In this document: piece after piece, positions 7,301 to 26,862 of the stretch
How the letters are laid out: each line of letters opens with the position of its first letter
How positions within the stretch are numbered: the stretch's first letter is position 1
Source of the DNA: Sporocytophaga sp.
GTDB lineage: Bacteria; Bacteroidota; Bacteroidia; Cytophagales; Cytophagaceae
Direction: 5' to 3'
Length of the DNA stretch: 64,000 nt
Assembly (NCBI RefSeq): GCF_017745095.1
Contig: NZ_JAGHZZ010000004.1
Location: 186,001-250,000 of the forward strand
The notes under the pieces: model-generated
What the model was told of the DNA's origin: nothing
Databases searched by the model: none
Seen by the model: only the letters and a program-made list of their open reading frames with translations
Made by a program: the position numbers and the translations under genes

Positions 7301-7349
7301 TTTTTTAAATAATTATTTTGAATGTTTACCTTTTTTCAGGTTCAGTGTA
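7301..7349 (+). promoter_or_regulatory. Promoter-like element upstream of the CE6-like esterase
   Basis: A run of T with AAAT (7300-7310), then TGTTTACCTT at 7323-7332 and GTA at 7347-7349. The core TTTACC to GTA spacing is 16 bases. The motif ends 129 bases before the ATG at 7461, the same distance as in the first PL11 gene. It is one of several matching elements in the window. Confidence 0.5.
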
Positions 7350-11103: not shown

Positions 11104-11284
11104 TCCTTTCCTGTGTTAAATGTCCAAAGCTTTTCCTAATATAGCCGCTGTGTTTCTCTATGGCTCCTATATATCTCCTTAAAATAATATAACTAAGAGA
11201 GAGAGCCAAGGACAATTATAGAGACATGAGTATGCAGTTTGTTGACTGTTTTTAATCTTTTTGAAAAAAAAACTTGTCAATAAC

Positions 11285-11311
11285 TGTTACCCTTACATCT
11301 TCCAATTTGTA
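11285..11311 (+). promoter_or_regulatory. Relaxed match to the shared promoter element, upstream of CE12
   Basis: TGTTACCCTT (11285-11294) then 14 bases then GTA (11309-11311), inside CCAATTTGTATA; two mismatches from TGTTYACCTT but the same spacing. It lies 56 bases before the ATG chosen at 11351 and would fall inside the gene if the TTG at 11261 were the start. Confidence 0.35.
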
Positions 11312-11350
11312 TATGGATTAATTTTCGAGTTTTTAATGATTAATCTATAT

Positions 11351-13744
11351 ATGAAAGGACTCCTACTAAGAATTATTAAAGACAGTAAGCTGGCTATCCT
11401 TATTAGTTTAACCTTTGTTTCCATTTCAGCATATTCCAGGGAGATAAATAAATTAAGTTATGATAAAAAAATAAAGGCATTCATTGCTCCCGAGGCTTGT
11501 CATTATCAATGGTTTTTTAATGGCCAAAGACTCAGTGCCGAAGATAGACAAGTTTTAAAAGCCTCTGCAACAGGTGAATATTCAGTTCAGCTGATTGATG
11601 AAGAAGGTGTATCAACATATCAAAAAGTATTGCTTGCTGTTGATGCAACTGGCGCAGTTATAACCATATACCTGATTGGAGACTCCACTGTCTGCAACTA
11701 TGCTGCATCAGCTTATCCTATGACAGGATGGGGGCAAATGCTTCCCTATTTTTTCAATAGTACCAATGTAAAGATAGATAATAGGGCAATAGGTGGGAGG
11801 AGTAGCCGAAGCTTTTATGAAGAGGGAAGATGGACAACCGTTAAAAATGCTTTGACAGCAGGGGATTATCTTTTTATTCAGTTCGGGCATAACGATAGAG
11901 ATTTTTCAAAGACTGAACGATATACTTCTGTTGAAGATTATAAGAAATTCCTTACCATTTATGTAAATGAGAGTAGAGCAAAAGGAGCTATACCAGTCCT
12001 GATTTCCCCTATGGTGATGAACGCCTGGAGTAATGGAACTTTGCGTAATGTTTTTACAGAAACTGGTAACAACTATCGAGGTGGAATGCTGGAAGTAGCT
12101 ACTGCTTTAAATGTGCCATTTATTGACCTAAATATGAAGTCCTGGAACCTATTTAAAGGGCTTGGGCAGAATTATATCACGAGGTTTGTTTATCATACTT
12201 ATCCTGCAGGTGAATATCCTAATTACCGCGATGGCATTACAGACGGTACACATTTTCAGGAGATGGGTGCTATAGAGAATGCGCGAATGATCGTTCAGGG
12301 TATTTCAGAATTAACAGGTAATATCAATATGTCAAGTCTGGCTAAATTCCTGAAGCCTATGTATGAGATAAAAGTGCTTGTTAATCCTGTTGGATCAGAC
12401 CTGATGACTACTCGTACAGCAAGCTATCCTGAAGGACTGACTGTCACTTTAAAGACCTTACCTAAAACAGGTAGCACCTTTCAGTTGTGGAAAAGTTCTG
12501 CTGGAGGACAAGTGTCCACAGTTACACTTACAACTGTTAAATCAGGTACAACAGCTACCAACTATACTGCAATATATAAAGGAGCAACAACAACCTGTTC
12601 TGCAATCATCAGCGCCTCCGGTGCAACTACGTTTTGTGAAGGAGGTAGTGTTACTCTAACATCTTCTGTTGGTTCATCTTATCTTTGGAAAAATGGAACT
12701 ACTCAGGTAGCAACCACTCAGACTTATGTTGCTAAAACTTCCGGTAATTATACTGTAGAAGTAACAGATGCCAATGGTTGCAAAGCTGTTGCTGCAGCAA
12801 CTAATGTAACTATTCAAAACAAAACTATTTGGTATGCAGATGCTGATGGAGACGGTAAAGGAGATTCAAAGGTTGCTCAATCATCATGCACTCAGCCGAC
12901 AGGTTATGTTGCAGACAAAACAGATCTTTGTCCGGAAGATAAAAACAAAACTGAACCTGGAAATTGTGGTTGTGGAAGAACAGAATCAAGTTGTATGGAT
13001 TGTGCAAATGTATTGAATGGTACCGCGACTTTGGATGTATGCGGTGTTTGTATTGGTGGTAATACCGGGAAGAAATCTTGCGTTTATAAATTACAAGCAG
13101 AAGAAGCTTGTGAAGTTGATGGTGTTCTGAATGAATCTACCAATGCAGGTTTTGAAGGTACTGGATATGTGAATGCGGAAAATGCTATTGGTAAATCAGC
13201 TTCCTTTTCTTTTGATGCAACTGCTTCTGGATATTATAAACTATTGATCAGATATGCGAATGGAGGAGCAGCAAATCGCTCTTCCGGAGTTACTGTTAAT
13301 TCGATAGAACAAAGTAGCGTATTGGCATTTCCTTCAACCGGGGCTTTTACAGCCTGGTCAACTTTAGAGGCAGAAGTTTTTCTCAATGAAGGTAATAATA
13401 TAGTAAGGTTGATTGCCAGGACTGTTGATGGACTTCCCAATATCGATTTCATTGGTTTTACTGAAAATGCCATTGCTGCCGGTCCTTGCTTGGTCACAGG
13501 AATTGATATGGGAAATATAAATTCGACTGAAGGTGTTTGTTATCCAAACCCATTTACTGGAGCATTTACATTGCAGGCACCTCAGGAATATTCTTATGCT
13601 ATTTATGATCTTACCGGTAAAGAAGTTGAATCGGGTAAAGGATTGAATACCGGTTTTGCCGGTAATGAATTGTTGCCTGGTATTTATACAGTAAAATTAC
13701 AAACATTGAAGTCTACAAGGTCTCTGCTTATTATTAAAAGGTAA
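11351..13744 (+). CDS. Secreted CE12-like rhamnogalacturonan acetylesterase, copy 1
   Basis: 797 residues from ATG 11351, which directly begins a signal peptide. A short Ig-like segment (about 45-100) precedes the SGNH domain (about 103-325): Ser in IGDSTVCNY, Gly in AIGGRSSRSF, Asn in QFGHND, and Asp/His in DGTHFQEMG, the CE12 pattern of rhamnogalacturonan acetylesterases. Then come a repeat-type beta domain (NPVGSDL, SYPEGLTVTLKTLP), an Ig-like domain with FCEGGSVTLTSS, a Ca-binding YADADGDGKGD/CPEDKNKTEPG segment with clustered Cys, a CBM35/CBM6-like domain (about 580-715) and a type A T9SS sorting domain. It is followed after 20 bases by a paralogue of identical architecture. Likely role: deacetylation of pectin outside the cell. 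Confidence 0.85.
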   Translation: MKGLLLRIIKDSKLAILISLTFVSISAYSREINKLSYDKKIKAFIAPEACHYQWFFNGQRLSAEDRQVLKASATGEYSVQLIDEEGVSTYQKVLLAVDATGAVITIYLIGDSTVCNYAASAYPMTGWGQMLPYFFNSTNVKIDNRAIGGRSSRSFYEEGRWTTVKNALTAGDYLFIQFGHNDRDFSKTERYTSVEDYKKFLTIYVNESRAKGAIPVLISPMVMNAWSNGTLRNVFTETGNNYRGGMLEVATALNVPFIDLNMKSWNLFKGLGQNYITRFVYHTYPAGEYPNYRDGITDGTHFQEMGAIENARMIVQGISELTGNINMSSLAKFLKPMYEIKVLVNPVGSDLMTTRTASYPEGLTVTLKTLPKTGSTFQLWKSSAGGQVSTVTLTTVKSGTTATNYTAIYKGATTTCSAIISASGATTFCEGGSVTLTSSVGSSYLWKNGTTQVATTQTYVAKTSGNYTVEVTDANGCKAVAAATNVTIQNKTIWYADADGDGKGDSKVAQSSCTQPTGYVADKTDLCPEDKNKTEPGNCGCGRTESSCMDCANVLNGTATLDVCGVCIGGNTGKKSCVYKLQAEEACEVDGVLNESTNAGFEGTGYVNAENAIGKSASFSFDATASGYYKLLIRYANGGAANRSSGVTVNSIEQSSVLAFPSTGAFTAWSTLEAEVFLNEGNNIVRLIARTVDGLPNIDFIGFTENAIAAGPCLVTGIDMGNINSTEGVCYPNPFTGAFTLQAPQEYSYAIYDLTGKEVESGKGLNTGFAGNELLPGIYTVKLQTLKSTRSLLIIKR

Positions 13745-13764: not shown

Positions 13765-16131
13765 ATGGGAAATGTCAACAAAATAATCTTCTTCTTAATA
13801 TTCATTTTATTATCGTCACCCTCATTGGGTTATGGTTTATCCGAAAAAGGAATAGTGACGGATAATGATTTAAAATCATTGGTCGCCCCAGATGCTTGTT
13901 CCTATCAATGGTTTAAAGAGGGTAAACTTATTGATGGAGCAATCAATCAATCGCTTTCAGTTCATGATGGTGGTAATTATGTGGTAATGATTACAGAAGA
14001 ATCCGGATACACGTACACGGAGGATATATCTATAGCCATCAACTCAGTTGGAGCGATAATAAAAATATACACGATAGGAGATTCCACTGTTCAGGATTAT
14101 ACAGATGGGTATTATCCTAGAAAAGGATGGGGGCAGGTCTTGCCTTACTTCTTTAAAAGTAGTAATGTTCAGGTGATCAATAAAGCTGTTGGTGGAACAA
14201 GCTCAAAAAGTTTTTACAACAGCTTCTGGCCTGCCGTTAGAAATGCTTTACAGCCGGGTGATTATGTATTTATTCAGTTTGGGATAAATGACAGAAATAA
14301 AGCAGATACCGCTCGCTATGCCCCTACAGGAGGAGTGTTCGAAGGTTATTTAACAAAGTTTATAAATGAAGCAAAAGCCAAAGGAGCTTATCCTGTTCTT
14401 GTCGCTACTTTGAGAAGAAATGCATGGAATGCGGATGGTACAGTCTATGATTCATATCATGATCATCCAATTGCTGTTCGAACAGTAGCAAATAATTTGA
14501 AAGTGCCTCTGATAGATCTGGATGCAAAGGCAAAAGCTCAGATGGAATCTGCAGGGCAGGCCTATACTACTCGTTTTTGGTATAATAATTACATTGCCGG
14601 TGAATATCTAAACTATCCTAATGGAAATACGGATGATGTCCACTTTCAGGAGATGGGTGCTATAGCAATGGCGAATCTTGTGATACAGGGCATTGAAGAG
14701 TTGAAATCAGATGCCAATGTTAGCAAACTCATTCCTTTTATAAAACCAAGATATCAGATAGCTGTCACTGTAAATCCTGTTGGATCGGATTTAGCAACTA
14801 CACATACAGCGAGCTATCCTGAAGGACTTACTATTACCCTAAAAACATTACCCAAAACAACTGAAACCTTTCAAAAGTGGAACAATACTTCCGGCGGACA
14901 ATTGTCTACTGCAACACTTACTACTGTTAAATCAGGGACTTCAGCGACGAATTATACGGCCATTTATAAAGGTGCAACAACTTGTACTGCTATAGTAACT
15001 GTATCCGGAACAACTTCTTTATGTGAGGGTGGAAGTGTTACATTAACAGCCTCTTCAGGTTCTTCCTATATTTGGAAAAACGGGGCTAATCAGGTTGGTA
15101 CAGCTCAGGCTTATGTCGCTAAAACTGCGGGTGTTTATACAGTAGATGTGATCAATTCTAGTGGTTGCAAAGCTACTGCAGCTGATGTAACGGTGTCTGT
15201 TCAAGCAAAAAGTATATGGTATGCAGATACTGACGGAGATGGAAAAGGAGATCCTAAAGTTTCTCAATCCTCATGCACTCAGCCAACGGGTTATGTTGCA
15301 GACCAAACGGATCTTTGTCCTGATGATAAAAATAAATCAGAACCGGGAGCTTGTGGTTGCGGTAAAACAGAATCAATTTGTATGGATTGTGCAAATGTTC
15401 TGAACGGTACTGCAGCATTGGATGCATGCGGAATTTGCGTTGGTGGCAATACTGGGAGAAAAGCTTGTGTCGTTAAACTTCAGGCTGAAGAAGCCTGTGA
15501 AGTAGATGGTATCCGGAACGAAGCTACCAATGCAGGTTTTGAAGGCAGTGGATACGTGAATGCTGATAATGCTATTGGAAAATCTGTTACTTTTTCCTTT
15601 AATGCAGAAGCTTCCGGAAATTATAAACTCTTGATCAGATATGCGAATGGAGGAACAGCAAGTAGATTTTCTGGCATTGTAATCAACTCAGCAGAACAGA
15701 GCGATGTCCTTGTTTTTTCCTCTACAGGAGCCTTTACCACATGGGCTACGATGGAAGCAGATGTTTATCTTAATAAAGGTGAAAATATGGTAAAGTTAAT
15801 AGCAAAGACTGCTGACGGATTACCTAATCTTGATTATATCGGTTTTATTGATCATTCAATCTCAGGAGGATCTTGTCTGGTGACTAGCGTTTTATCTAAA
15901 GATTTTGGATCAAGTGAAATTATTTGTTATCCAAATCCATTTATGGGGTCTGTTGTATTAAAAGCTTCAGGATACTATTCTTACTCTTTTTATGATCATA
16001 CCGGTAAGGAGATTGAATCGGGTAAAGGTTTTGAAACTGGTCTAGTGGGAAGCGAATTATTACCAGGCGTTTACATGCTAACATTAAAAACAGAAAAAAG
16101 TACTAGGACTTTAAGAATTGTTAAAAAATAG
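13765..16131 (+). CDS. Secreted CE12-like rhamnogalacturonan acetylesterase, copy 2
   Basis: 788 residues, signal peptide ending about LGYG. It has the same domain order as the gene 20 bases upstream: Ig-like segment, SGNH domain (IGDSTVQDY, AVGGTSSKSF, QFGIND, DDVHFQEMG), beta domain, Ig-like domain, TSP3-like Ca-binding segment (YADTDGDGKGD), CBM35/6-like domain and type A sorting domain. The oxyanion Asn is kept (FGIND) but the residue before it is Ile where copy 1 has His. The pair arose by tandem duplication and is probably transcribed as one operon from the promoter before copy 1. Divergence in the catalytic half suggests a different acetylated substrate or site. Confidence 0.85.
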   Translation: MGNVNKIIFFLIFILLSSPSLGYGLSEKGIVTDNDLKSLVAPDACSYQWFKEGKLIDGAINQSLSVHDGGNYVVMITEESGYTYTEDISIAINSVGAIIKIYTIGDSTVQDYTDGYYPRKGWGQVLPYFFKSSNVQVINKAVGGTSSKSFYNSFWPAVRNALQPGDYVFIQFGINDRNKADTARYAPTGGVFEGYLTKFINEAKAKGAYPVLVATLRRNAWNADGTVYDSYHDHPIAVRTVANNLKVPLIDLDAKAKAQMESAGQAYTTRFWYNNYIAGEYLNYPNGNTDDVHFQEMGAIAMANLVIQGIEELKSDANVSKLIPFIKPRYQIAVTVNPVGSDLATTHTASYPEGLTITLKTLPKTTETFQKWNNTSGGQLSTATLTTVKSGTSATNYTAIYKGATTCTAIVTVSGTTSLCEGGSVTLTASSGSSYIWKNGANQVGTAQAYVAKTAGVYTVDVINSSGCKATAADVTVSVQAKSIWYADTDGDGKGDPKVSQSSCTQPTGYVADQTDLCPDDKNKSEPGACGCGKTESICMDCANVLNGTAALDACGICVGGNTGRKACVVKLQAEEACEVDGIRNEATNAGFEGSGYVNADNAIGKSVTFSFNAEASGNYKLLIRYANGGTASRFSGIVINSAEQSDVLVFSSTGAFTTWATMEADVYLNKGENMVKLIAKTADGLPNLDYIGFIDHSISGGSCLVTSVLSKDFGSSEIICYPNPFMGSVVLKASGYYSYSFYDHTGKEIESGKGFETGLVGSELLPGVYMLTLKTEKSTRTLRIVKK

Positions 16132-16233
16132 GATCCTGAAGATATATTTCTGTTATAGTCTGAGTGGTATGAATATAATAGTTGTTTAATCGGTTGATAT
16201 TGAGTGATTCATGTTGCCGAAATTATTTGAATT

Positions 16234-16272
16234 AAAAAATCCCTGTCTTTATAAATAAGGCAGGGATTTTTA
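16234..16272 (+). terminator. Rho-independent terminator after the CE12 pair
   Basis: AAAAATCCCTG...CAGGGATTTTT hairpin with a short AT loop and a trailing T run. Confidence 0.85.
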
Positions 16273-16330
16273 ATTTAAACTGGTCTTCGAAATTAAATTG
16301 CTATTCAAAGCGTATTTTATTTTAGAATAT

Positions 16331-16357
16331 TGTTCACCTTCAGTTATTTCAATTGTA
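16331..16357 (+). promoter_or_regulatory. Promoter-like element, distal to the ECF sigma gene
   Basis: TGTTCACCTT (16331-16340), 14 bases, GTA (16355-16357). It matches the elements before the PL11 and GH11 genes exactly in core and spacing. It is 325 bases before the sigma gene; no gene lies between, so it would give a long leader. The rest of the 550-base gap holds only the terminator and a second, closer match at 16648. Confidence 0.4.
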
Positions 16358-16647
16358 ATGGGTCTAGGGTTTTTATTTTAAAAATCGGATGCGTAAAACA
16401 AACTGCAATGAAGAGAATTCGTATACCCTAAGTGATTTATTAATAGCATTTTAATAGTTTTGGAATGTTACTCTTATGAAGTATTTTAAATCTTGCTAAA
16501 GAAGTATAAACAAACACTTTAAATCATAAGAACAGAAGATTTTAGTTTGAGGTCTTATAGAAAATATAAATTTGATGAATCCGTCCAATCTGTTTATAAG
16601 AAAGAATATGCTTTGTTACAGAGTTCAGAGTATTAAGCAAAACTCTT

Positions 16648-16675
16648 TGTTCACATTTACCTCACCATCTTTGTA
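16648..16675 (+). promoter_or_regulatory. Promoter-like element immediately before the ECF sigma gene
   Basis: TGTTCACATT (16648-16657), 15 bases, GTATA (GTA at 16673-16675): one mismatch in the upstream box, spacing as in the PL11 promoters. If transcription starts about seven bases on, the message would begin at or near the ATG at 16682 (leaderless). An alternative reading is a weak general promoter (TTTG at 16646, then CATCTTTG at 16666, one base off TAnnTTTG). Confidence 0.4.
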
Positions 16676-16681
16676 TAAGAA

Positions 16682-17257
16682 ATGAGAAGGCTAAATGATA
16701 AAGAAATATTGAAGGCAATCAGGACAGGAGATAATGAATCTGTTCTGAGCAATCTGTATAAAGAAGTCCTTCCTCATATCAAGAAATATATCACCAGTAA
16801 TAGTGGTTCTCATGAGGATGCTAAGGATATATTTCAGGATACTGTAGTAATATTCTATAATCAGGTCAAGCTTAATAAGTTTGATGAAAGAAAGGAGATA
16901 GGCGCCTTTATGTTTAGTGTGGCCAGAAATCTTTGGATCAATAAGGCAAAGAGGGATAACAGACTTGTTAATACAACGGAGTTTGATGACAGTGAAGAAG
17001 AAGGTATGGATGTATTGGCAGATATGATTACAGCAGAGAAGGCTAAGGCAATAGAAGATATAATGGAAAGAGTTGGAGAAGAATGTAAGAAGCTGTTGAT
17101 GTATACCATTTATGATAAGATCAGTCTTAAAGAAATAGCAATAAAAATGGGCTACTCAAGTGATCAGGTAGCTAAAACATATAGTTACAGATGCAGACAA
17201 AAACTGTCCAATCTGGTAAAAGATAATTCTCACATCATATCATTATTTAAGCAATGA
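16682..17257 (+). CDS. ECF-type RNA polymerase sigma factor
   Basis: 191 residues. Region 2 (about 20-100) includes HEDAKDIFQDTVVIFYNQV and FMFSVARNLWINKAKRDNR; region 4 (about 128-180) includes LKEIAIKMGYSSDQVAKTYSYRCRQKL as a helix-turn-helix. There is no region 1 or 3, as in group 4 (ECF) sigma factors. The stop codon overlaps the ATG of the next gene (ATGA), so it is translationally coupled to a membrane protein of anti-sigma layout. Downstream genes encode a T9SS type B substrate and a PorP/SprF-like partner. A promoter-like element matching those of several secreted carbohydrate-active enzymes lies directly upstream, suggesting autoregulation; this is inference. Confidence 0.9.
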   Translation: MRRLNDKEILKAIRTGDNESVLSNLYKEVLPHIKKYITSNSGSHEDAKDIFQDTVVIFYNQVKLNKFDERKEIGAFMFSVARNLWINKAKRDNRLVNTTEFDDSEEEGMDVLADMITAEKAKAIEDIMERVGEECKKLLMYTIYDKISLKEIAIKMGYSSDQVAKTYSYRCRQKLSNLVKDNSHIISLFKQ

Positions 17258-17994
17258 GTCTCCCTGATAATCCATATGAATTGATAGATCGCTATCTCAA
17301 TGGTGAGATGAGCATAGGGGAGAAGGCTGATTTTGAAGAAAGGCTTAAATCCGATAAGGAATTTGCGGAACAATTTGAAATACAAAATATAAGCTACCAG
17401 ATTGTTGTAGGCCAAAATCTTCTTGATTTAAAAGCCAGAATGCAAAAGGATCTTAGCGGTAGTAAATACGATGGTAATAAGAATAATAGCTGGAAATATT
17501 TTGGCGGAGGTGCAGGATTGATTTTAATTGCTGCTCTATTGTACTTCTTTCTTAAGTCAGATGGACAAGTTAAACCTGAGGTTAAGAGCAGTCCTGTACC
17601 AGTCGATACGGTTACTTCTGTTACAGAAAATAATGAGGTCGATACAGCAGCATGGAATAATATTCCTGAATTTATTCCAGAAAATAGTAAGGATCAAAAC
17701 GCTGTTATAAATAAAGACAACGATCTTTGTAAAGATACCTTGATCAGTTTCTCATGCCAGGCAAGAGCAGCTTGTGCTGATCAAAGTAATGGTGCTATTG
17801 AAGTTGATTTGAATACCATTAAATATGGTAAAGCACCGTTTGAGTTTTCAATACACCCCAATGGGGAATTTATTTCTGAGCCATTTATAGGAGACCTTAA
17901 ACAAGGAAAGTACAGTTTATTTGTAAGAGATGCCAAAGGTTGCATTCGTAGGTTGAATGTTAAAGTGGAGGTTCCTTCAATAGATTGCAAATAG
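17254..17994 (+). CDS. Membrane anti-sigma-like protein with SprB-like periplasmic repeat
   Basis: 246 residues, starting 4 bases inside the sigma gene. The N-terminal 75 residues are acidic/helical (NPYELIDRYLNGEMSIGEKADFE), resembling the cytoplasmic sigma-binding region of Bacteroidota anti-sigma factors; no zinc-binding His-Cys motif is seen. One membrane span follows (about 82-100), then a Pro/Ser/Asn-rich linker (about 104-155). The C-terminus is a Cys-containing beta domain (about 160-240: SNGAIEVDLNTI, APFEFSIHPNGEF, LKQGKYSLFVRDAKGC) that resembles a SprB repeat. Placement after an ECF sigma gene makes an anti-sigma role likely; the SprB-like periplasmic part could be the sensor. Confidence 0.7.
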   Translation: MSLPDNPYELIDRYLNGEMSIGEKADFEERLKSDKEFAEQFEIQNISYQIVVGQNLLDLKARMQKDLSGSKYDGNKNNSWKYFGGGAGLILIAALLYFFLKSDGQVKPEVKSSPVPVDTVTSVTENNEVDTAAWNNIPEFIPENSKDQNAVINKDNDLCKDTLISFSCQARAACADQSNGAIEVDLNTIKYGKAPFEFSIHPNGEFISEPFIGDLKQGKYSLFVRDAKGCIRRLNVKVEVPSIDCK

Positions 17995-18044
17995 TATTCA
18001 CGTTTATAGTCACTAAGTTAAATTTGAAATTGTAAGTCCTTTAA

Positions 18045-20105
18045 ATGCATTTCAGAGTTGTTCTTTTTAGTATATTGTTTGCCACCCTTGCTTTATCAGG
18101 AGCAAAGGGCCAGAATGTATTTTTTTCTGCTAACGATGATAACTCTGCTTTTTTGTGTGAAGATGGAAGGATATTCATAACTGGCGAAAACAACGTTGGT
18201 CAGCTTGGAATAGGCTCCTTAATTCCTTCCAATGTGCCTATAATGATTTCTGGTATAAATGGTGGACTGCCTCCCAGATGTAAACAAGTTTCTTTAGAAG
18301 GAGTAACAACTTTTATGGCCCTTACCAATTCAGGAGACACTGTATTATCCTGGGGGCCCAATGACCATGGGCAGGTGGGTGATGGAACAACGAACAAAAG
18401 ACTTACTCCATATATTGTAAAAGGCGTTAATGGTGCAGGACATTTAAGCAATATAAAACAGATCTCGACAGGAAATACAACAGGGTATGCATTAACCAAT
18501 GATGGAAAGGTACTTAGTTGGGGAGGCAATGCCAGCGGAGAAACAGGTACAGGTAATTTTACTGATCCTGTATATTACCCTTCCTATGTGTTAAAAGCAC
18601 CTGGAGATACTTTGAAGAATGTAAAAGCGATTAGCGGTGGCGGTACATTTTGCATAGCTTTATTGTGTGATGGGAGCGTGTGGGGATGGGGGAAAAACCA
18701 CGTCGGACAACTTGGTCAGAATAATAAAACCAATTCTGCATATGCTATACCTGTTAAAGATAAATCGGGAAAGACGGTTCTTAATAATATTATAAAAATA
18801 GAAGCTGCGGATAATTATTCATATGCGTTATCTAATAATGATACTCTGTGGGTTTGGGGACCTAATTGGGATGGTAGGCTTGGCACAGGCAATAAAACAG
18901 ATCGTTTACTACCTGACTATGTAAGGAGTATTGACGGTACCAAGCATTTGTCTGGTGTAATTACTATTGCAGGCGGACAGGGTGTGACTCTTGCTTTAAT
19001 GTCAGATAAGACAGTCTGCTCATGGGGACTTAATGATTATGGCCAGCTAGGTAGAAATGATACTATTGATTCTTCACTTCCTGTAAAGGTTAAAGATCCT
19101 TCAGGTTCTGGAGATCTGAAGGATATTAATTATGTGTCAGTCGGGGATATTCATTGCATAGTGAGAAGTGATAAGAATGAAATTTACGTTTGGGGAGGAA
19201 ATCCTCTCGGTCAACTGGGGCTCAATGACCACGTGGATAGATGGCTTCCTGTCTTGCTAAACCTGCCATGTGAACCAGATAGAGATGTTTTTCCAGGCAA
19301 TGGAAAAATGGAAAATACTCCTTCTGCATGTGTTGAATCTAATAAAGGCAAAGTTTATATCACTAAATACCATTCTGCAATTGAACGATGGGAACAATCA
19401 ACAGATAATTTTGAGACTTTTACGCCTATTGTAAATACTAGTTTTTCTAACGAATATACAAATCTTAAGAAAAAGACTTATTACAGAGTTTTATTAAATG
19501 ATTGTGGTAGAAATTTCTATTCTCCTGTAACAGTAATAGATATAGATTCACTGACCAAAAGTGGTATAGTTGAATCGTCAGCGAATGTGCGTGCAAATTT
19601 GAATAAAGATACACTTCATTTAAAAAATTATAAAGGAACCATTTTGTTCTGGGAATATTCAAAAGATAATTTTACTACAGACTGGCAAATTATAAAGTCA
19701 TCGGAGTCATCTTGTATCTATAATAACTTGTTAAAAACGACTTATTACAGAGCTTATGTTAAGAGAGGCAGTTGTCCTGCCAGGTATTCTGAAGCTGCGG
19801 AGATAAGGATTGTTGAGGCATCCGAAGTTAAGGTTTATAACGGATTTACTCCTAATGGCGATAATATCAACGATGAATGGATAATAGATTTTATTGATTT
19901 ATATCCTGATAACAAAGTTGAAATATATAACCGCTGGGGACAATTGGTTTACAGAAATACTTCATATAATAATGAATCTAAAGTGTGGAGAGGAGAAAGT
20001 AATATTGCGGGTAAAGAAGCTTTAGCAGATGATACTTATTTTTATGTGATTAATTTGGGGGAAGGGAATCCGGTAATGAAGGGATATGTAGTTATTAACA
20101 GATAG
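18045..20105 (+). CDS. RCC1-repeat protein with T9SS type B (CHU_C) sorting domain
   Basis: 686 residues with a signal peptide (about 1-22, ending GAKG). Seven RCC1-type repeats span about 40-405, each with a W-G-N-hydrophobic-GQLG core (for example WGPNDHGQVG, WGKNHVGQLG, WGLNDYGQLG), enough for a complete seven-bladed propeller. Two or three Ig-like beta domains follow (about 420-595), then the gliding-motility-associated C-terminal domain (about 598-686: YNGFTPNGDNINDEW, VEIYNRWGQLVYR, DDTYFYVIN), a type B T9SS signal. It is a surface-exposed propeller. The PorP/SprF-like gene begins 54 bases downstream, the usual pairing for type B substrates. Confidence 0.88.
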   Translation: MHFRVVLFSILFATLALSGAKGQNVFFSANDDNSAFLCEDGRIFITGENNVGQLGIGSLIPSNVPIMISGINGGLPPRCKQVSLEGVTTFMALTNSGDTVLSWGPNDHGQVGDGTTNKRLTPYIVKGVNGAGHLSNIKQISTGNTTGYALTNDGKVLSWGGNASGETGTGNFTDPVYYPSYVLKAPGDTLKNVKAISGGGTFCIALLCDGSVWGWGKNHVGQLGQNNKTNSAYAIPVKDKSGKTVLNNIIKIEAADNYSYALSNNDTLWVWGPNWDGRLGTGNKTDRLLPDYVRSIDGTKHLSGVITIAGGQGVTLALMSDKTVCSWGLNDYGQLGRNDTIDSSLPVKVKDPSGSGDLKDINYVSVGDIHCIVRSDKNEIYVWGGNPLGQLGLNDHVDRWLPVLLNLPCEPDRDVFPGNGKMENTPSACVESNKGKVYITKYHSAIERWEQSTDNFETFTPIVNTSFSNEYTNLKKKTYYRVLLNDCGRNFYSPVTVIDIDSLTKSGIVESSANVRANLNKDTLHLKNYKGTILFWEYSKDNFTTDWQIIKSSESSCIYNNLLKTTYYRAYVKRGSCPARYSEAAEIRIVEASEVKVYNGFTPNGDNINDEWIIDFIDLYPDNKVEIYNRWGQLVYRNTSYNNESKVWRGESNIAGKEALADDTYFYVINLGEGNPVMKGYVVINR

Positions 20106-20159
20106 ACTAAATTGAATTGTAATTTATATTTGTGCCTATCCATCAGAAGGAAGAATTAC

Positions 20160-21056
20160 ATGGTTTTAATCATGATGTTTCTTCTCAAGACTGGCATTGT
20201 ATATGCTCAAAATGAACCGATGTATAGCCAGTATATTTTTAATACATTGGTTATTAATCCTGCTTACGCCGGCAGTCAGGGTGATCTGAATGCTACAGCA
20301 GTATATAGAAAGCAATGGATGGATATTGACGGAGCTCCTTCTACTCAAACATTTTCAATCCATAGTCCTATTAAGAAAAAAAAGATTGCGCTTGGTTTAT
20401 TGGCGGTACATGATAAAATAGGTGTTACGGGAAAGACAGGTTTGTATGGTGTCTATGCATATAGGATAAGCTTCAATAATAATTCAAAGTTGTCCCTTGG
20501 ATTAGAAGGAGGATTTGTACAGATGGTCTCGAGGTTCAGCAGGATTCAGACCAAGCAGGCCAATGATCCTGATATGAGTATAGATAAATCTATATATGCA
20601 GCTCCTGGTGTAGGTGCAGGAGTTTATTGGTACTCCCCTAAATATTATCTTGGTGCTTCTATTCCGGATCTTCTGGAGGTCAGAATTAATGAGGCTGGTG
20701 AAGCTGTAAAATACAGACACATATTTGTTCATGGAGGATATGTTTTTAAATTATCTTATCAGGTTAAATATCTTCCGGGGTTTCTTGTAAAAAATGTGAA
20801 GGGAAGTAAAGCTCAGGTAGATATAAATAATATCTTTATTTTGAATGATGTGTTATGGCTAGGTTTAGGCTATAGAGTAGGGACTTCTTTAAATTTTATA
20901 GTTCAGGCTCAGCTTACCAATCAGCTTCAGGCTGGCTATTCTTATGATGCTCCATTCTCTCGCTTTAGTTCAATCGCTGGGGCTAGTCATGAATTTAAAC
21001 TGAGTTATAGATTTGTCTTTTTTAAGGATAATGCATATATGCCAAGATATTTTTAA
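20160..21056 (+). CDS. PorP/SprF-family T9SS outer-membrane protein
   Basis: 298 residues from ATG 20160 (preceded by AGAAGGAAGA as a ribosome binding site; the in-frame TTG at 20112 is unlikely). The signal peptide ends at about IVYAQ (residue 17). The mature start NEPMYSQYIFNTLVINPAYAGS is the hallmark of the family, followed by an outer-membrane beta-barrel ending in aromatic-rich strands. SprF/PorP proteins are needed for export or surface attachment of type B CTD substrates in Flavobacterium johnsoniae and Porphyromonas gingivalis. It lies directly after the RCC1/CHU_C protein and is probably its dedicated partner. Confidence 0.9.
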   Translation: MVLIMMFLLKTGIVYAQNEPMYSQYIFNTLVINPAYAGSQGDLNATAVYRKQWMDIDGAPSTQTFSIHSPIKKKKIALGLLAVHDKIGVTGKTGLYGVYAYRISFNNNSKLSLGLEGGFVQMVSRFSRIQTKQANDPDMSIDKSIYAAPGVGAGVYWYSPKYYLGASIPDLLEVRINEAGEAVKYRHIFVHGGYVFKLSYQVKYLPGFLVKNVKGSKAQVDINNIFILNDVLWLGLGYRVGTSLNFIVQAQLTNQLQAGYSYDAPFSRFSSIAGASHEFKLSYRFVFFKDNAYMPRYF

Positions 21057-21060
21057 TGAG

Positions 21061-23103
21061 ATGAAGAGGTTGCTGGTTATATTGTTTTTAATATTAAAAG
21101 TCGGTGAAACTTTTGGTCAGACTGTTTTTACTGACGTTAATAGCCTTAAAAAACGTGCGGATTATTATTATAAGCAGTTGGCTTATGCAAAGGCCGCTGA
21201 CTTATATGCAGAGGCTTTAAAGAAAAAGAAAAACATCAAGGATTGTGATCTTAACAGAAAAGCCGCAATACTGTTTAAGAAGATGTCCAGATATGAAGAG
21301 GCGAAAAGGTGCTTTGAAAATATTCAGATATCAGGGCATGCTCTAGGTTCTCAAGACAGCATAGATTATTTCAATACGTTACGGGCAATCAATGATTCAA
21401 AGGCTGATACGATTTTTACAAAGGTTCATTCTAGGATTGTATTAAATAATCTATTCAGAGATAGTCTGTACTATAACATTTTTAATTTGCCTTTTAATAC
21501 TTCTGGCTCTGAGTACTGTCCCGTTCAGTTGCATAAAGGAATGTTTTATGTTGCTGAGGAAGAGGATACTTCAATAGTTCGGAAATACAATGCATTAAAC
21601 AACGGTGGTTTTGCTCATATTTATTATTCTCAAAAAGGTGATACTGGATGGAGTAAATCAGTTAAAGTAGATTTCGATAAGGAAAATGTACTTCATATAG
21701 GACCTGTTGCATTTTATGATAGTCTTAAAGCAATAGTGAACCTTTGTGTAAAAGGAGATCGAGAGCCTTACAGATTGGAGCTCTATTCTGCTGAGTTTGA
21801 TGAATCGTTAATTAGATGGAAATATCTTTCTCCTATCCCCATCAATAATGCTGAATATTCAATTGGTCATCCCGCAATAAGTATGGATGGAAAACAATTG
21901 TTTTTTGTTTCAGATAAGCAAGGTGGTTATGGCGGTACTGATATTTATAGGAGTGTATTGAAGAACAGTGGTTGGTCTGAACCAACGAATCTTGGACCTA
22001 AGATCAATACTAAAGGGGATGAGAAATATCCGTTTTTAACTGATGATAATATTTTGTTTTTCTCTTCAGATGGTAAGTATGGAATGGGAGGTCTTGATAT
22101 TTATTATGTCGATCTTTTATTCAAGGATACCACTGTTGTAAATATGGGATTCCCTGTGAATTCTAATCTTGATGACTTCGGATTCAGTTATAGCAAAAAG
22201 GCTAAGACTGGATACTTTTCTTCTAACAGAAAAAGCAATGGAGGTGACGATGATCTTTACATGTATACTGAAAATAAAGTGTTTTTTGAGCTTAGTGTTT
22301 TTGATGATTTTGACGAAAAGGAATTGGTTGATTATACAGCAAGCCTTGTTGACGCAGAGTTAAATATACCTATCAGATGTATACCTGGTTCTTCTCCGAA
22401 TTCAATTAAAGCAAATCTCCGTCCTGGTCATGCATATAGATTGATTATCTATAAGGATGATTATAAGAATGATACTTTGAATATTTCAACTCATGGAAAT
22501 GCAGCATATACTAATAAAATTTCCCCGAAAATTTATTTAAAGAGAAAGCATATATATAATGCAAGTCTTCAGTTTAAAGGTGAGTTTTCCAAAGAGAATT
22601 TCAGCGGAGCTTTAATCCTAATAAATAACATGACTGAAAATACCCTGGATACTCTTGATAATAATACAGCTACAGCGACTATAAAATTGGATGGGGATTG
22701 TGAATATATTATTACTTCAAGAAATGGTGATAAGCTTAGATATATTTATGTAGAAAAGAAATCTTTCAGGTTATCTGATTTGGTACCATACTATAATTTA
22801 TATCTTGGAGCAGCCACTCCTTCTATATTATATGTGAGGATAAAAGAGTGTGTGCCAGCAAAAGATGTGGAAGCTTCTAATATTCCTGAGGTCACGGTTT
22901 GGGATTGGGTAAACAGAAATCAGTTTAATATAACTCCAGGTCCAGAAGGTGATTTTCAGATCGTTGTAATGGATGATAGATTATACGATCTTCTGATTAA
23001 TGGTAAGGAAGTTAGGCTTGATGCAAGTGAGATTGTTCATGATAAATATTGTATTAAATATCTTCATGATTCTAGTCGTCAGTTATTAAGATTTAAAAAA
23101 TAA
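21061..23103 (+). CDS. TPR and PD40-repeat protein (PorE-like without OmpA domain)
   Basis: 680 residues from ATG 21061, four bases after the PorP-like stop; the longer frame from 21013 overlaps that gene. Signal peptide ends about TFGQ (20). TPR-like helices occupy about 25-115. A PD40-type propeller spans about 150-430 with blades such as GHPAISMDGKQLFFVSD, EKYPFLTDDNILFFSSD and GFSYSKKAKTGYFSSN. Two beta domains of carboxypeptidase-regulatory type follow. PorE-type T9SS proteins combine TPR, PD40, CRD and a peptidoglycan-binding OmpA domain; here no OmpA_C motif is visible, so it would not bind peptidoglycan in the usual way. Last gene of the sigma-led operon. Confidence 0.78.
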   Translation: MKRLLVILFLILKVGETFGQTVFTDVNSLKKRADYYYKQLAYAKAADLYAEALKKKKNIKDCDLNRKAAILFKKMSRYEEAKRCFENIQISGHALGSQDSIDYFNTLRAINDSKADTIFTKVHSRIVLNNLFRDSLYYNIFNLPFNTSGSEYCPVQLHKGMFYVAEEEDTSIVRKYNALNNGGFAHIYYSQKGDTGWSKSVKVDFDKENVLHIGPVAFYDSLKAIVNLCVKGDREPYRLELYSAEFDESLIRWKYLSPIPINNAEYSIGHPAISMDGKQLFFVSDKQGGYGGTDIYRSVLKNSGWSEPTNLGPKINTKGDEKYPFLTDDNILFFSSDGKYGMGGLDIYYVDLLFKDTTVVNMGFPVNSNLDDFGFSYSKKAKTGYFSSNRKSNGGDDDLYMYTENKVFFELSVFDDFDEKELVDYTASLVDAELNIPIRCIPGSSPNSIKANLRPGHAYRLIIYKDDYKNDTLNISTHGNAAYTNKISPKIYLKRKHIYNASLQFKGEFSKENFSGALILINNMTENTLDTLDNNTATATIKLDGDCEYIITSRNGDKLRYIYVEKKSFRLSDLVPYYNLYLGAATPSILYVRIKECVPAKDVEASNIPEVTVWDWVNRNQFNITPGPEGDFQIVVMDDRLYDLLINGKEVRLDASEIVHDKYCIKYLHDSSRQLLRFKK

Positions 23104-23175
23104 ACTTTTAATTGTGTGTCTCTATATTTTCTTTTACGATCCGGTTAAGTAAAAAATTGTAAATCAGTATTAAAG

Positions 23176-23219
23176 ATACAATAAAAAAGCTATCCTTATG
23201 GATAGCTTTTTTATTGTAT
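23176..23219. terminator. Strong bidirectional-looking terminator
   Basis: Perfect 20-base stem (23176-23195 with 23200-23219) around a TTAT loop; the stem contains A6 and T6 tracts flanking GCTATCC/GGATAGC. It closes the sigma-PorP operon. Confidence 0.9.
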
Positions 23220-23222
23220 AAA

Positions 23223-23267
23223 TTTTTTTAAATGATAATTGTTCACCTTCCGATTTGTCGAATTGTA
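23223..23267 (+). promoter_or_regulatory. Shared promoter-like element of PL11 gene 1
   Basis: T7-AAAT (23223-23233), TGTTCACCTT (23240-23249), 15 bases, GTATAC (GTA 23265-23267). It ends 129 bases before the start codon and is nearly identical to the copy before PL11 gene 2. Confidence 0.55.
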
Positions 23268-23290
23268 TACTACTCAAGAAACTGAAAAAG

Positions 23291-23335
23291 GTAAACAGTA
23301 TATATTTTTCCTAGGCTATTGTTTATACTGTTGAC
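23291..23335 (+). promoter_or_regulatory. Conserved inverted repeat in the PL11 gene 1 leader
   Basis: GTAAACAGTATATA at 23291 and TTTATACTGTTGAC ending at 23335 are inverted (12 of 14 matches; the core AACAGTATA/TATACTGTT is perfect) around a loop holding CCTAGG. It lies between the putative promoter and the start codon, so it could be an operator or an RNA hairpin. Confidence 0.45.
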
Positions 23336-23377
23336 TTCTAAAAAAGGTTTTGTTTGGTATTAATTAAACTTTATTTT

Positions 23378-26300
23378 ATGAAAAGAACTCAACTTTCAAA
23401 AATCATTTTTCTACTGTGGCTGTCAATATTGCCCTTTTATTCCAAGGGGCAATATGCAATGGAGAAACTCAATAGGGGAGTTGTTTCTGTTCGTTCGGGT
23501 AGCAATAACTTTGTTAGCTGGCGTTGGCTGGGGACAGAAGATAATATAACATTCAACCTGTATCGAAATGGTACTAAGGTAAACACCGCTCCATTAACAG
23601 TTACGAATTATACAGATAAAGGTGCTCCTGCAAATGCTCAATACAATGTAAAACCTGTTGTCGGTGGTGTAGAACAAGCTGCATCAGAAACAGTAGCTAC
23701 GTGGGGGCAGAATTACTTATCTGTGCCGATCCAGGCACCATCGGGCACCTATAGCGCTAATGACTGTAGTATTGGAGATGTGGATGGTGACGGTGTTTAT
23801 GAAATTCTTTTAAAATGGGATCCGGCTAATGCAAAAGATAACTCGCAAGCTGGCGTAACTGATAATGTATTTATAGACTGCTACCGATTGAATGGTACAA
23901 GACTATGGAGAATTAATCTGGGAAGAAACATCAGAGCAGGGGCTCATTATACACAATTAGCATTTTATGATTTTGATGGTGACGGGAAAGCTGAATTTAT
24001 GTGTAAAACTGCTGACGCCACAATTGACGGAACGGGTAAGGTAATTGGAAATGCCAATGCAGATTATAGAAATGCCGACGGATATATATTAACAGGTCCT
24101 GAATTTATAACAGTATTTAATGGTCTTACAGGAGCTGCAATGGCAACATCAAATTATATTCCTGCAAGAGGTACTGTGTCAAGTTGGGGAGATAGTTACG
24201 GAAACCGTGTCGACCGTTTTAGGTCAGGTGTTGCATATTTAGATGGGAAAAGGCCATCTGCCATATTTGGCAGAGGTTATTATACAAGACTTGTACTAGC
24301 TGCCTGGGACTGGCGTGATGGGAAACTTACAAACAGATGGACATTTGATGGTAATTCTAATAGTGGTTACAATGGTCAAGGGGATCATAGTTTAAGCGTT
24401 GCTGATGTCGATAATGATGGAAAACAGGAAATTATTTCTGGTGCAGCTATCATTGATGATGATGGTAAGCCTTACTATACTACAGGCTATGGTCATGGAG
24501 ATGCTTTGCATGTCTCAGATTTCGATCCTTCTGTACCTGGCATTGAAGTGGTAAACATTCAGGAGAGATTTGATAAGCAAGGAATTTATATGTACAGTGC
24601 TACTGGTAAAAAGGTTCTTTGGGCAATACCATCAGTGGCTGCAGGAAGTGATGGAGAAGGTCCGGGTAGAGGTGTATGTGCTGATATTTCAGCTTCTTCT
24701 CCTGGTGCGGAGTCCTGGGCTGCAGGTGCCGGCATTACTGGTGTTTTTAATACGAAAGGTGAAAGAACGGGATTGGCAACTCCTTCATCTTGCAACTTTC
24801 TTGCTTGGTGGGATGGAGATTTGTTAAGAGAGTTGCTTGATAAAACGTCAATTAGCAAATATCAAGGAAATACTCTTCTTAGTGCGACGGGCTGTGCGTC
24901 AAATAATGGAACTAAATCAACCCCATGTATAAGTGGTGATATTATAGGAGATTGGCGTGAAGAGGTGATTTTCAGAACTTCTGATAACACTGCTTTACGA
25001 ATTTATACAACCAATATTCCTTCCACGTATAAATTTAGAACTCTTGTGCATGATGCTCAATACAGGGTAGCTTTGGCATCTCAAAATAGTGCTTATAATC
25101 AGCCGCCGCATGTAAGCTTCTTTTTGGGTGATAAAATGGAGGAACCTGTTAAACCTGTTATTACTATTGTTGGATCCCTTGATCCTCCAAATCAAATTCC
25201 AACTGTCTCGTTGACAGCTCCTTTAAATAATGCAAGTTATCTTGCACCAGCTTCCATCAGTATTGCTGCTACTGCCAATGATGCTGACGGAACTATATCC
25301 TCTGTAGCTTTCTATCACGGCGCTACTTTAATTGGTACAGATGCTACAGCTCCTTATTCCTTTAACTGGACAAATGTAGCAGCTGGTACTTATTCGATAA
25401 CTGCAGTTGCTACAGATAATGCTGGAGCAACTGCCACTTCAGGTCCTGTAACTGTGATTGTGGATTCTACCCCGTCATTTAAAGTTCAAGGAGAAGCAGC
25501 ATGTTCTGTAGATGGTGTATTAAATGAAAATACAAATACAGGTTTTTATGGCACTGGTTATGCAAATGTCAATAATGCTATAGGAAGCAAAGCTACTTGG
25601 GCAGTGTCTGCAAGTGCAGCTGGTAATGTAAGCCTGACAATCCGTTTTGCAAATGGAACAACGGTAAACAGAACCATGTCTGTAGCAGTAAATGGCGTTA
25701 CTCAAGTTGCTTCACAGAACTTTGCCGGTACAGGAACATGGACAACCTGGAATACAGCAGTCGTGCAGATTTCTGTTTCCCAGGGAAATAATATAATAAC
25801 ATTAGCATCTCTAACAGCTGATGGCGGACCGAATATAGATGAATTAGTGTTAGCCTCAGAAAATATATCGGAGGGACAATGTATTACTACTCCTGCTAAT
25901 CTACTTCCATCTATAAATATTACACATCCTGTAGACGGCGGAGAATATACAGCTCCTGCAAATATAAATCTTAGTGCTACTGCAATAGATAGTGATGGTT
26001 CTGTAAGTAAAGTAGAATTCTATAATGGTTCAGAGCTGCTAAGTTCAATTCCCACTGCTCCTTATGAATTTTCCTGGACGAACGTTGCTGCTGGTACTTA
26101 TATTATAACAGCTAAAGCAACCGACAATCAAGGGGCAGTGACTACAAGTTCGCCAAAGACGATCATAGTAAATCCTGTTATTACTTCCATAGACTACACG
26201 AATAGTAACGGTGTTCTTATCGGACCGAATCCTTCAGAGAATAATTTCATTCTTACCGCGGCCGAGAGTGTAGAGTCTTTAATAGTTATTAATTCCAACG

Positions 26301-26443
26301 GAACTGTTGTTTTTAGTTCTGGAAGGGTAGAAGATGGAGCTCAGCTTAGATTTGGAGCAGGGTTGGAATCTGGTCTCTATATTGCATCTGTTGTTCATTC
26401 TTCAGGGAAAGTTGAAGTTATAAAATTGCAAAAAGTGAAATAA
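23378..26443 (+). CDS. Secreted PL11 rhamnogalacturonan lyase, copy 1
   Basis: 1021 residues from ATG 23378 (a longer in-frame start at 23354 adds eight residues before the signal peptide MKRTQLSK). The PL11 domain (about 25-605) begins QYAMEKLNRGVVSV and carries repeated acidic Ca-binding loops such as DVDGDGVYEILLKWDP, DFDGDGKAEFMCKTAD and VADVDNDGKQEI, typical of YesW/YesX-type rhamnogalacturonan I lyases. After it come a bacterial Ig-like domain (about 610-700), a CBM35/6-like domain (about 705-835), a second Ig-like domain (about 850-935) and a type A T9SS sorting domain. It cleaves the rhamnose-galacturonate backbone of pectin outside the cell. Tandem paralogue downstream. Confidence 0.92.
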   Translation: MKRTQLSKIIFLLWLSILPFYSKGQYAMEKLNRGVVSVRSGSNNFVSWRWLGTEDNITFNLYRNGTKVNTAPLTVTNYTDKGAPANAQYNVKPVVGGVEQAASETVATWGQNYLSVPIQAPSGTYSANDCSIGDVDGDGVYEILLKWDPANAKDNSQAGVTDNVFIDCYRLNGTRLWRINLGRNIRAGAHYTQLAFYDFDGDGKAEFMCKTADATIDGTGKVIGNANADYRNADGYILTGPEFITVFNGLTGAAMATSNYIPARGTVSSWGDSYGNRVDRFRSGVAYLDGKRPSAIFGRGYYTRLVLAAWDWRDGKLTNRWTFDGNSNSGYNGQGDHSLSVADVDNDGKQEIISGAAIIDDDGKPYYTTGYGHGDALHVSDFDPSVPGIEVVNIQERFDKQGIYMYSATGKKVLWAIPSVAAGSDGEGPGRGVCADISASSPGAESWAAGAGITGVFNTKGERTGLATPSSCNFLAWWDGDLLRELLDKTSISKYQGNTLLSATGCASNNGTKSTPCISGDIIGDWREEVIFRTSDNTALRIYTTNIPSTYKFRTLVHDAQYRVALASQNSAYNQPPHVSFFLGDKMEEPVKPVITIVGSLDPPNQIPTVSLTAPLNNASYLAPASISIAATANDADGTISSVAFYHGATLIGTDATAPYSFNWTNVAAGTYSITAVATDNAGATATSGPVTVIVDSTPSFKVQGEAACSVDGVLNENTNTGFYGTGYANVNNAIGSKATWAVSASAAGNVSLTIRFANGTTVNRTMSVAVNGVTQVASQNFAGTGTWTTWNTAVVQISVSQGNNIITLASLTADGGPNIDELVLASENISEGQCITTPANLLPSINITHPVDGGEYTAPANINLSATAIDSDGSVSKVEFYNGSELLSSIPTAPYEFSWTNVAAGTYIITAKATDNQGAVTTSSPKTIIVNPVITSIDYTNSNGVLIGPNPSENNFILTAAESVESLIVINSNGTVVFSSGRVEDGAQLRFGAGLESGLYIASVVHSSGKVEVIKLQKVK

Positions 26444-26749: not shown

Positions 26750-26793
26750 TTTTTTAAATAAAAAATGTTCACCTTCCAATTTGGCGAATTGTA
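26750..26793 (+). promoter_or_regulatory. Shared promoter-like element of PL11 gene 2
   Basis: T6-AAAT (26750-26759), TGTTCACCTT (26766-26775), 15 bases, GTATAC (GTA 26791-26793). It ends 130 bases before the start codon. The whole region to the ATG is conserved with that of copy 1. Confidence 0.55.
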
Positions 26794-26816
26794 TACTACA
26801 CTAGAAACTGAAAAAA

Positions 26817-26862
26817 GTAAACAGTATATATTTTTTCCTAGGCTATTATTTATGCTGTTGAC
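26817..26862 (+). promoter_or_regulatory. Conserved inverted repeat in the PL11 gene 2 leader
   Basis: GTAAACAGTATATA and TTTATGCTGTTGAC, inverted with 11 of 14 matches, around the same CCTAGG-containing loop as in copy 1. Confidence 0.4.

Follow-up and report, generated by a model that had tools for sequence, protein, structure and literature searches.

The sigma/anti-sigma locus

We analyzed a stretch of 64,000 nucleotides (the window) from the 6.6-Mb genome of Sporocytophaga sp., a soil bacterium (contig NZ_JAGHZZ010000004.1, positions 186,001 to 250,000 of the forward strand). The analysis centered on a gene pair encoding an extracytoplasmic function (ECF) sigma factor and an anti-sigma-like membrane protein, and on the regulation in which the pair may take part. 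The two open reading frames overlapped by 4 bases, a translationally coupled arrangement. The sigma factor exceeded the cut-offs of Pfam region 2 (33.2 bits against 24), of Sigma70_ECF and of NCBIfam sigma70-ECF (61.8 bits against 42.9), and its closest named match, 94% identical, came from a Sporocytophaga metagenome-assembled genome. The functional unit exceeds the pair, as it comprises an operon-like set at 16330-23219 and three further elements, at 11284, 23239 and 26765 (Table 1).

The partner was laid out as a helical region (residues 1-75), a transmembrane segment (about 82-100), a linker of 60 residues and a SprB-like domain (about 161-246), without the tail typical of cargo of the type IX secretion system (T9SS). 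Hydropathy placed the transmembrane segment near residues 82-100, and the predicted model had a helix at 87-100, preceded by N-terminal helices at 7-15, 21-33 and 35-68. The partner gave no Pfam match at E up to 0.1, hence no FecR domain, and no anti-sigma family match in Pfam or NCBIfam. The assignment of the SprB-like domain had three bases: matches to repeats in open frames of 1915-3992 amino acids (aa) in the same genome (best E 2.7e-5), Pfam SprB matches (E up to 0.01) in 24 of the 45 tailed relatives, and a sandwich of the PKD or immunoglobulin (Ig)-like type predicted at about 160-246. Neither Pfam nor NCBIfam matched a CHU_C/TIGR04131 tail, and in an alignment of 14 partners the protein stopped before the tail. 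Pfam showed no TonB-dependent receptor among the three genes 3' of the pair. A preliminary description of this DNA had proposed an overlapping sigma/anti-sigma pair with a SprB-like periplasmic domain, and our analysis bore out both points.

Table 1. Positions of genes and regulatory features at the locus (window coordinates)
Feature	Position	Strand	Details
Element before GDSL operon	11284..11313	+	TGTTACCCTT...TTTGTATA
GDSL esterase 1	11336..13744	+	CBM35-like module, T9SS type A tail; ATG 11336 or 11351
GDSL esterase 2	13765..16131	+	CBM6-like module, T9SS-type tail scoring below Pfam cut-off
Distal strict element	16330..16357	+	TTGTTCACCTT...TTGTA, no TATA after TTGTA
Proximal element	16647..16677	+	TTGTTCACATT...TTTGTATA; kept in four genomes
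ECF-type sigma factor	16682..17257	+	191 aa, ATG start; Pfam, NCBIfam, tree placement
Anti-sigma-like membrane protein	17254..17994	+	246 aa; residues 1-75 helical, transmembrane segment, SprB-like domain
RCC1 propeller protein	18045..20105	+	Pfam RCC1 and CHU_C; T9SS type B tail
PorP/SprF outer-membrane barrel	20112..21056	+	PF11751, E 1.5e-72
PorE-like protein	21061..23103	+	TPR, PD40 propeller; ATG 21061; without OmpA end
Terminator-like hairpin	23176..23219	+	20-pair stem, then T run; closes the sigma operon-like set
Element before PL11a	23239..23268	+	Pattern match, conservation
PL11 rhamnogalacturonan lyase a	23378..26443	+	PF21348, E 1.1e-217; ATG 23378
Element before PL11b	26765..26794	+	Duplicate of PL11a region
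PL11 rhamnogalacturonan lyase b	26905..30252	+	PF21348, E 3.4e-219; ATG 26905

A locus-specific promoter element

The pattern GTTCACNTT-N11..19-TTGTA occurred four times in the window against 0.05 expected, and none of 100 shuffles reached four. Across four genomes of the genus, TGTTMMCMTT-N10..14-TTGTAT gave 14 matches (the reversed-pattern control gave 1). Thirteen of them stood at this locus, ahead of PL11 genes, GDSL1 and sigma, and the remaining one was at G000:C62:260840. The element is thus real and specific to the locus. Its clearest footprint was before GDSL1, where three genomes shared 10 first-block and 11 second-block bases without change, against just 2 of the 11 spacer bases. At the sigma and PL11 sites the blocks were conserved, but so was much of the surrounding sequence. 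The PL11a and PL11b elements stem from one duplication and were therefore counted once; the PL11 site of genome G003 was missed by the pattern because of one changed base in the first block.

Two elements preceded the sigma gene, as the preliminary description had noted. The last base of the distal one lay 325 bases before the A of the ATG; it was present in four genomes, the G003 copy with one changed base in the first block, and its spacer was likewise conserved. In the proximal one, a near-match to the strict form, 4 bases separated GTATA from the ATG, so that a transcript starting about 7 bases after the -10 block would be leaderless. Conservation in four genomes and the genome-wide search make sigma autoregulation, together with a pectin regulon of the two PL11 genes and the GDSL operon, a well-supported prediction. 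The earlier proposal that the sigma factor controls its own operon was strengthened in this way, and that of an enzyme regulon was supported for the PL11 genes and the GDSL operon, which share the element; the CE6-like and GH11 genes, also proposed as members, carried an element of another class.

A related motif was common near sigma genes of this kind. Ten of 17 such genes in the same genome had GTT[CT]?AC no more than 70 bases from the start (shuffle mean 0.9, largest 4 in 1000 shuffles). In a wider set, from which three loci with less than 250 bases upstream were dropped, the motif stood near the start in 35/44 sigma genes whose partner is tailed (shuffle mean 6.1, upstream control 6). Matches to a stricter two-block pattern occurred in 17/44 tailed and 5/61 untailed loci and in 0/3 rows of the window clade; the window block is one base off that pattern.

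A second element class and a paralogous sigma factor

The window's CE6-like and GH11 genes (7422 and 56024) were genuine by Pfam, and the sites before them, at 7324 and 55950, read GTTTACCTTT...GTGTA. The pattern TGTTTACYTTT-N10..14-GTGTA had 18 matches in the four genomes, against 1 for its reversed control. The genes that followed were GH8-type (4), GH11 (4), CE6-type (4), glucose/sorbosone dehydrogenase (3) and a BD-FAE esterase (1), and the other 2 of the 18 sites were antisense in the PL11b promoter. The GH8, BD-FAE, dehydrogenase, one GH11 and the window CE6 and GH11 targets were checked with Pfam, and the remaining ones were assigned through matching protein starts.

When the first base was relaxed, the element was also found before a paralogous sigma gene, that of locus L014 (G000:C11:591263), and before its GH10 neighbor; the sites in this locus lay at L014:2418 and L014:6528, and further loci were L167-L184. 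Among 17 loci scanned in the same genome, L014 alone had the second-class element before its sigma gene, the sole other match being the antisense PL11b site. Three sister genomes kept the L014 site, the sequence around it being generally conserved as well. The second class (GTTTACYTTT...GTGTA; GH8, GH10, GH11, CE6, BD-FAE and the L014 sigma) probably represents a xylan regulon, a set into which the dehydrogenases did not obviously fit. The CE6-like and GH11 genes were accordingly rejected as targets of the window sigma, since their element is of the class shared with the L014 sigma promoter. The antisense copy in the window (26797-26822, minus strand) lay just downstream of the PL11b element and was also present in genome G002; no gene followed it within 500 bases.

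Tailed anti-sigmas and their PorP neighbors

The genome held 17 sigma genes of this kind at E < 1e-19, the window sigma included. In the alignment of 14 partners from this genome, 11 of the 13 non-window proteins had a CHU_C-like tail after the SprB-like domain; the L019 and L021 partners had none, and the latter (L021:3006-3998) contained an HtrA/Deg-like protease domain. A wider survey covered 142 sigma loci, of which 116 were non-redundant at 97% sigma identity, a threshold at which sister-species orthologs are still present, and 111 had a partner.

Partners were tailed in 45 of these 111 loci. A divergent PorP-like gene lay within 600 bases of the sigma gene in 40/45 tailed loci against 1/66 untailed loci, a proportion that marks a conserved module rather than 40 independent events, as the surveyed loci are related. 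The tail and PorP profiles were trained on sequences of the window genome (11 and 13, respectively); excluding its 11 tailed loci, the divergent gene was found in 30/34. The single untailed locus with such a gene was L021, whose PorP-like gene itself belonged to the training set. Among the tailed exceptions, L015, L032 and L033 had a PorP-like gene elsewhere, and none was seen at L034, which is cut 94 bases upstream, or at L145.

In a Pfam check of the 45 tailed partners (E up to 0.01), CHU_C was found in 39 and FlgD_ig in 31, in addition to SprB as given above; the L014 partner reached 34.7 bits for CHU_C against a cut-off of 27. The untailed control alignment held 61 of 63 partners, the short L025 and L100 being left out, as was, beforehand, the window clade. 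These 61 matched TPR_6 (20), Trypsin_2 (11), TonB_C (3) and FecR (1). Of the 29 families matched, 25 were listed, and CHU_C and SprB were not among them; none of the other four had more than one member. In the ortholog of the window anti-sigma in G003, a metagenome-assembled genome (L137:13565-13864; also L026:9573-9872), the reading frame appears broken past the transmembrane region, the remainder lying in another frame; L137 was entered as untailed.

The gene 3' of the tailed anti-sigma mostly encoded a leucine-rich-repeat (LRR) protein, often with its own T9SS tail (LRR_4 25/26, CHU_C 17/26). This alignment held 26 of 29 genes (L015, one of L029 and L033 were left out), and at 16/45 tailed loci the sequence covered contained no third gene. 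In the third genes of L009-L020 (e.g., L014:4190-5821), the end of the LRR protein resembled the SprB-like domain and tail of the anti-sigma. Such products may compete with the anti-sigma for the same barrel.

Tailed anti-sigmas occurred in 15 of 19 genomes of the family to which the window genome belongs, its own included. A search with the tailed profile across the phylum returned only the window genome of 392, a weak negative, as a rule only 5 candidates per genome having been scored. Paralog modules also lay near a GH5 cellulase and a CBM6/GH59-like gene (L012:7256-9352, L015:4688-6949), neighbors hinting at more substrate-specific regulons.

Structure models and descent of the window lineage

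The model of the tailed L014 partner (mean predicted local distance difference test, pLDDT, 76; predicted template modeling score, pTM, 0.41) showed a helical N-domain predicted with confidence and a transmembrane helix, then some 110 residues, mostly of low confidence, and two beta domains. The transmembrane helix, if uncleaved, would hold the sister anti-sigmas in the inner membrane. Superposition placed the last domain on T9SS cargo domains seen in the translocon: 8glk (68 residues at 1.5 A, Z 9.3), 8gl6 (Z 8.5) and 8gl8 (Z 7.8). It also superposed on PorZ (Z 8.7); PorU headed the list (Z 9.5), yet at 17 A over two domains. Against PDB sequences, the tailed profile matched the adhesin GhpA of Aureispira (E 9.4e-38), with the best stretch at the GhpA C-terminus, followed by FlgD (E 2.3e-4) and PorZ (E 0.0025). 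The model of the window partner (pLDDT 72, pTM 0.38) had the N-domain and transmembrane helix as in L014 and a single PKD-like domain; Foldseek returned no match under E 0.001 for it, and its best rows were PKD domains.

A maximum-likelihood tree built from 111 sigmas grouped the 3 window-clade rows and all 45 sigmas that have tailed partners in one clade (100/99). The window rows were nested inside it beside L139 (99/83), whose partner is tailed and whose PorP-like gene is divergent. In the window clade, PorP follows the pair, together with the cargo and PorE-like genes, and is not divergent. The simplest reading of this placement is that the tail was lost in the window lineage, along with a shorter linker and a PorP gene on the 3' side of the pair in place of a divergent one.

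Genes around the pair

GDSL esterase 1 matched rhamnogalacturonan acetylesterase (1deo, E 1.6e-13, residues 135-219) and YxiM (2o14, E 2.3e-20) in the PDB and shared about 58-60% identity with GDSL esterase 2. Its listed start, TTG 11261, lies upstream of its element and was set aside for the downstream ATG. The RCC1 protein scored 52 bits for TIGR04131 (type B; cut-off 35) and the barrel 257 bits for TIGR03519 (cut-off 90.55). The PorE-like protein spanned positions 62-491 of the 648 of NF052230 PorE at 171.9 bits, below the cut-off of 600 and with the OmpA end unmatched, and scored 183.6 against a cut-off of 620 for a second OmpA-like family. The listed TTG start of its gene was likewise set aside for ATG 21061, as were TTG 23354 (PL11a) and TTG 26881 (PL11b) for their downstream ATGs. 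The two PL11 lyases were 81% alike. Hairpins with a T run numbered 4 in the stretch scanned, against 3.1 in shuffles, the one at 23176 having by far the longest stem. Rfam gave no match at gathering scores in 16100-23400, and a sigma-70 consensus scan was uninformative (35 sites against 32.5 in shuffles).

Proposed mechanism and alternative explanations

On balance, we favor a reading of the locus as an ECF sigma switch that responds to polysaccharide and is coupled to the T9SS. At rest, the N-terminal domain of the partner would hold the sigma factor at the inner membrane. Its SprB-like periplasmic domain may report on an outer-membrane assembly built from the same gene set, in which the RCC1-propeller type B cargo would be displayed on the PorP/SprF barrel with the PorE-like protein as a periplasmic scaffold. 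Similar contacts have been described: in Porphyromonas gingivalis, a type B protein is found in one complex with PorP and PorE, and in Flavobacterium johnsoniae SprF binds SprB (PMC9143113). Binding of rhamnogalacturonan-I at the surface would alter the contact and inactivate the inhibitor, and the freed sigma factor would then transcribe the two PL11 lyases and the GDSL esterases as well as its own operon, the latter with positive feedback and through a near-leaderless message. In the sister systems, the inhibitor has a T9SS-like end of its own and probably bridges both membranes by docking on the cognate PorP/SprF barrel.

By extension, the family could represent a new class of trans-envelope signaling, a generalization that we put forward tentatively and find slightly harder to assert than the switch itself. 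In such a class, cargo-like anti-sigmas anchored in the inner membrane would dock on PorP/SprF through a C-terminal secretion domain, so that a surface polysaccharide or the pull of the T9SS is felt by the sigma factor. Several such systems would run in parallel in Cytophagaceae under separate promoter codes, one for pectin at the window locus and one for xylan at L014. The window system would be a derived, split form in which the anti-sigma has given up its tail and the operon supplies cargo, barrel and scaffold.

Several observations weigh against these proposals. Unrelated Ig-like domains (4s3r and 5xya, both Z 8.9) tied with T9SS cargo, so that the fold alone is no proof of a T9SS role. 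The L014 tail scored below the NCBIfam cut-offs for type A (TIGR04183, 21.6 against 23) and type B (TIGR04131, 17.8 against 35), as did the L010 tail (21.4 and 17.8), and the sister tails also resembled FlgD_ig in the proportion given above. The window anti-sigma has no T9SS tail, and its linker of 60 residues compares with 91-133 in 44 tailed relatives. GTT[CT]?AC near the start was also found in 35/61 sigmas with untailed partners (shuffle mean 8.5, upstream control 6), which indicated that an own promoter of this kind is general and not peculiar to the tailed clade. Rhamnogalacturonan-I as the signal was guessed from the targets. The idea that a T9SS or surface state is read by a SprB-type module, raised in the preliminary description, gained from the family association, but the T9SS-like tail that the relatives carry is absent from the window protein.

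The strongest competing explanation, though still an unlikely one, is that the system reads the export state of the T9SS and not a glycan: unloaded PorP/SprF or backed-up type B cargo would free the sigma factor, and the exported enzymes would be clients. The operon itself supplies secretion partners, and in P. gingivalis the surface C-terminal domain (CTD) protein PorA affects PorXY-SigP signaling (PMC7712824). However, the window element is limited to one substrate class and locus, and that of the paralog to mainly xylan-type genes. A general export sensor would need no substrate-specific regulons, and the split of substrates between paralogs speaks for glycan specificity.

It is improbable that the genes form an ordinary envelope-type ECF pair whose SprB-like domain and T9SS neighbors are unrelated to the signal. 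The anti-sigmas of related sigmas do bear many other domains (TPR, trypsin-like, TonB_C), but the tail and the PorP-like neighbor co-occur (40/45 against 1/66 loci), and the tail-less window clade has PorP with the cargo and PorE-like genes after the pair. More doubtful again is that the element, with its two blocks, serves as operator for some other transcription factor, the adjoining sigma factor being autoregulated through chance proximity. The starts at the element-bearing promoters are predicted ones, and TGTTCACCTT, the first block, exceeds a usual -35 in length, which would suit an operator; the two blocks nevertheless stand at promoter-like spacing, and GTT[CT]?AC lies near sigma starts far more often than in shuffles (10/17 and 35/44). 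That the window sigma also drives the CE6-like and GH11 genes is very unlikely, for although part of the first block is common (GTTTACCTT against GTTCACCTT) at similar spacing, the GTTTACYTTT...GTGTA class has its own gene set in four genomes and matches the L014 sigma promoter.

Comparison with known systems

The sensing of insoluble plant polysaccharides by Cytophaga-type bacteria is poorly understood. Sigma-cel1 of Cytophaga hutchinsonii, in a related genus, is reportedly (Wang et al. 2019, cited in PMC12016534) an ECF sigma factor controlling a cellulose response. In Clostridium thermocellum, a single-membrane bacterium, the anti-sigma of the SigI/RsgI system itself bears carbohydrate-binding domains. 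Like ours, that system, which is mentioned in PMC10766802, comprises a number of paralogous pairs that each serve a separate polysaccharide regulon.

In Flavobacterium psychrophilum, a motif of ECF type stands before T9SS genes as well as before a sigma/anti-sigma pair, in an arrangement that differs from that of the window locus (PMC9723704). The PorXY-SigP system of P. gingivalis is similar in that an ECF sigma factor is linked to the T9SS and a CTD protein influences the signal; unlike our system, it uses a two-component route in which a PorX-type response regulator activates the sigma factor, and SigP controls T9SS genes rather than a pectin set (PMC4800418, PMC7712824). The PorE-PorP-type B cargo complex and SprB-SprF involve the same three kinds of protein that are encoded after the pair, although there they serve anchoring and secretion, with no sigma/anti-sigma (PMC9143113). 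In the openly accessible literature, we found no published account of anti-sigmas bearing a SprB domain or a T9SS tail.

TonB/FecR cell-surface signaling (PMC11637429) and SusC/D-linked pairs (PMC10766802) share with our proposal the route from an outer-membrane protein through an anti-sigma to an ECF sigma factor, often for glycan use. The window pair differs in having PorP/SprF instead of a TonB-dependent receptor or FecR domain. The Dma/Das system of Bacteroides (PMC13088901) is comparable in its N-terminal sigma-binding domain, transmembrane helix, long disordered tether, C-terminal outer-membrane element and adjacent ECF sigma factor, and in being confined to Bacteroidota. Dma, whose cognate sigma factor is of group ECF21, ends in its own beta-barrel, whereas the sister proteins here have a T9SS-like domain and a separate PorP/SprF gene, and the window partner has neither barrel nor tail and ends in one small beta-sandwich domain. 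As proposed, the system would work like cell-surface signaling and Dma anti-sigmas, yet it lacks their defining FecR or barrel features. If the proposed mechanism is true, the T9SS would serve signaling besides secretion, the sigma factor assigned to a given polysaccharide could be predicted from promoter codes, and the Dma anti-sigmas of Bacteroides, with their fused barrel, would have a split counterpart that docks on a barrel encoded separately.

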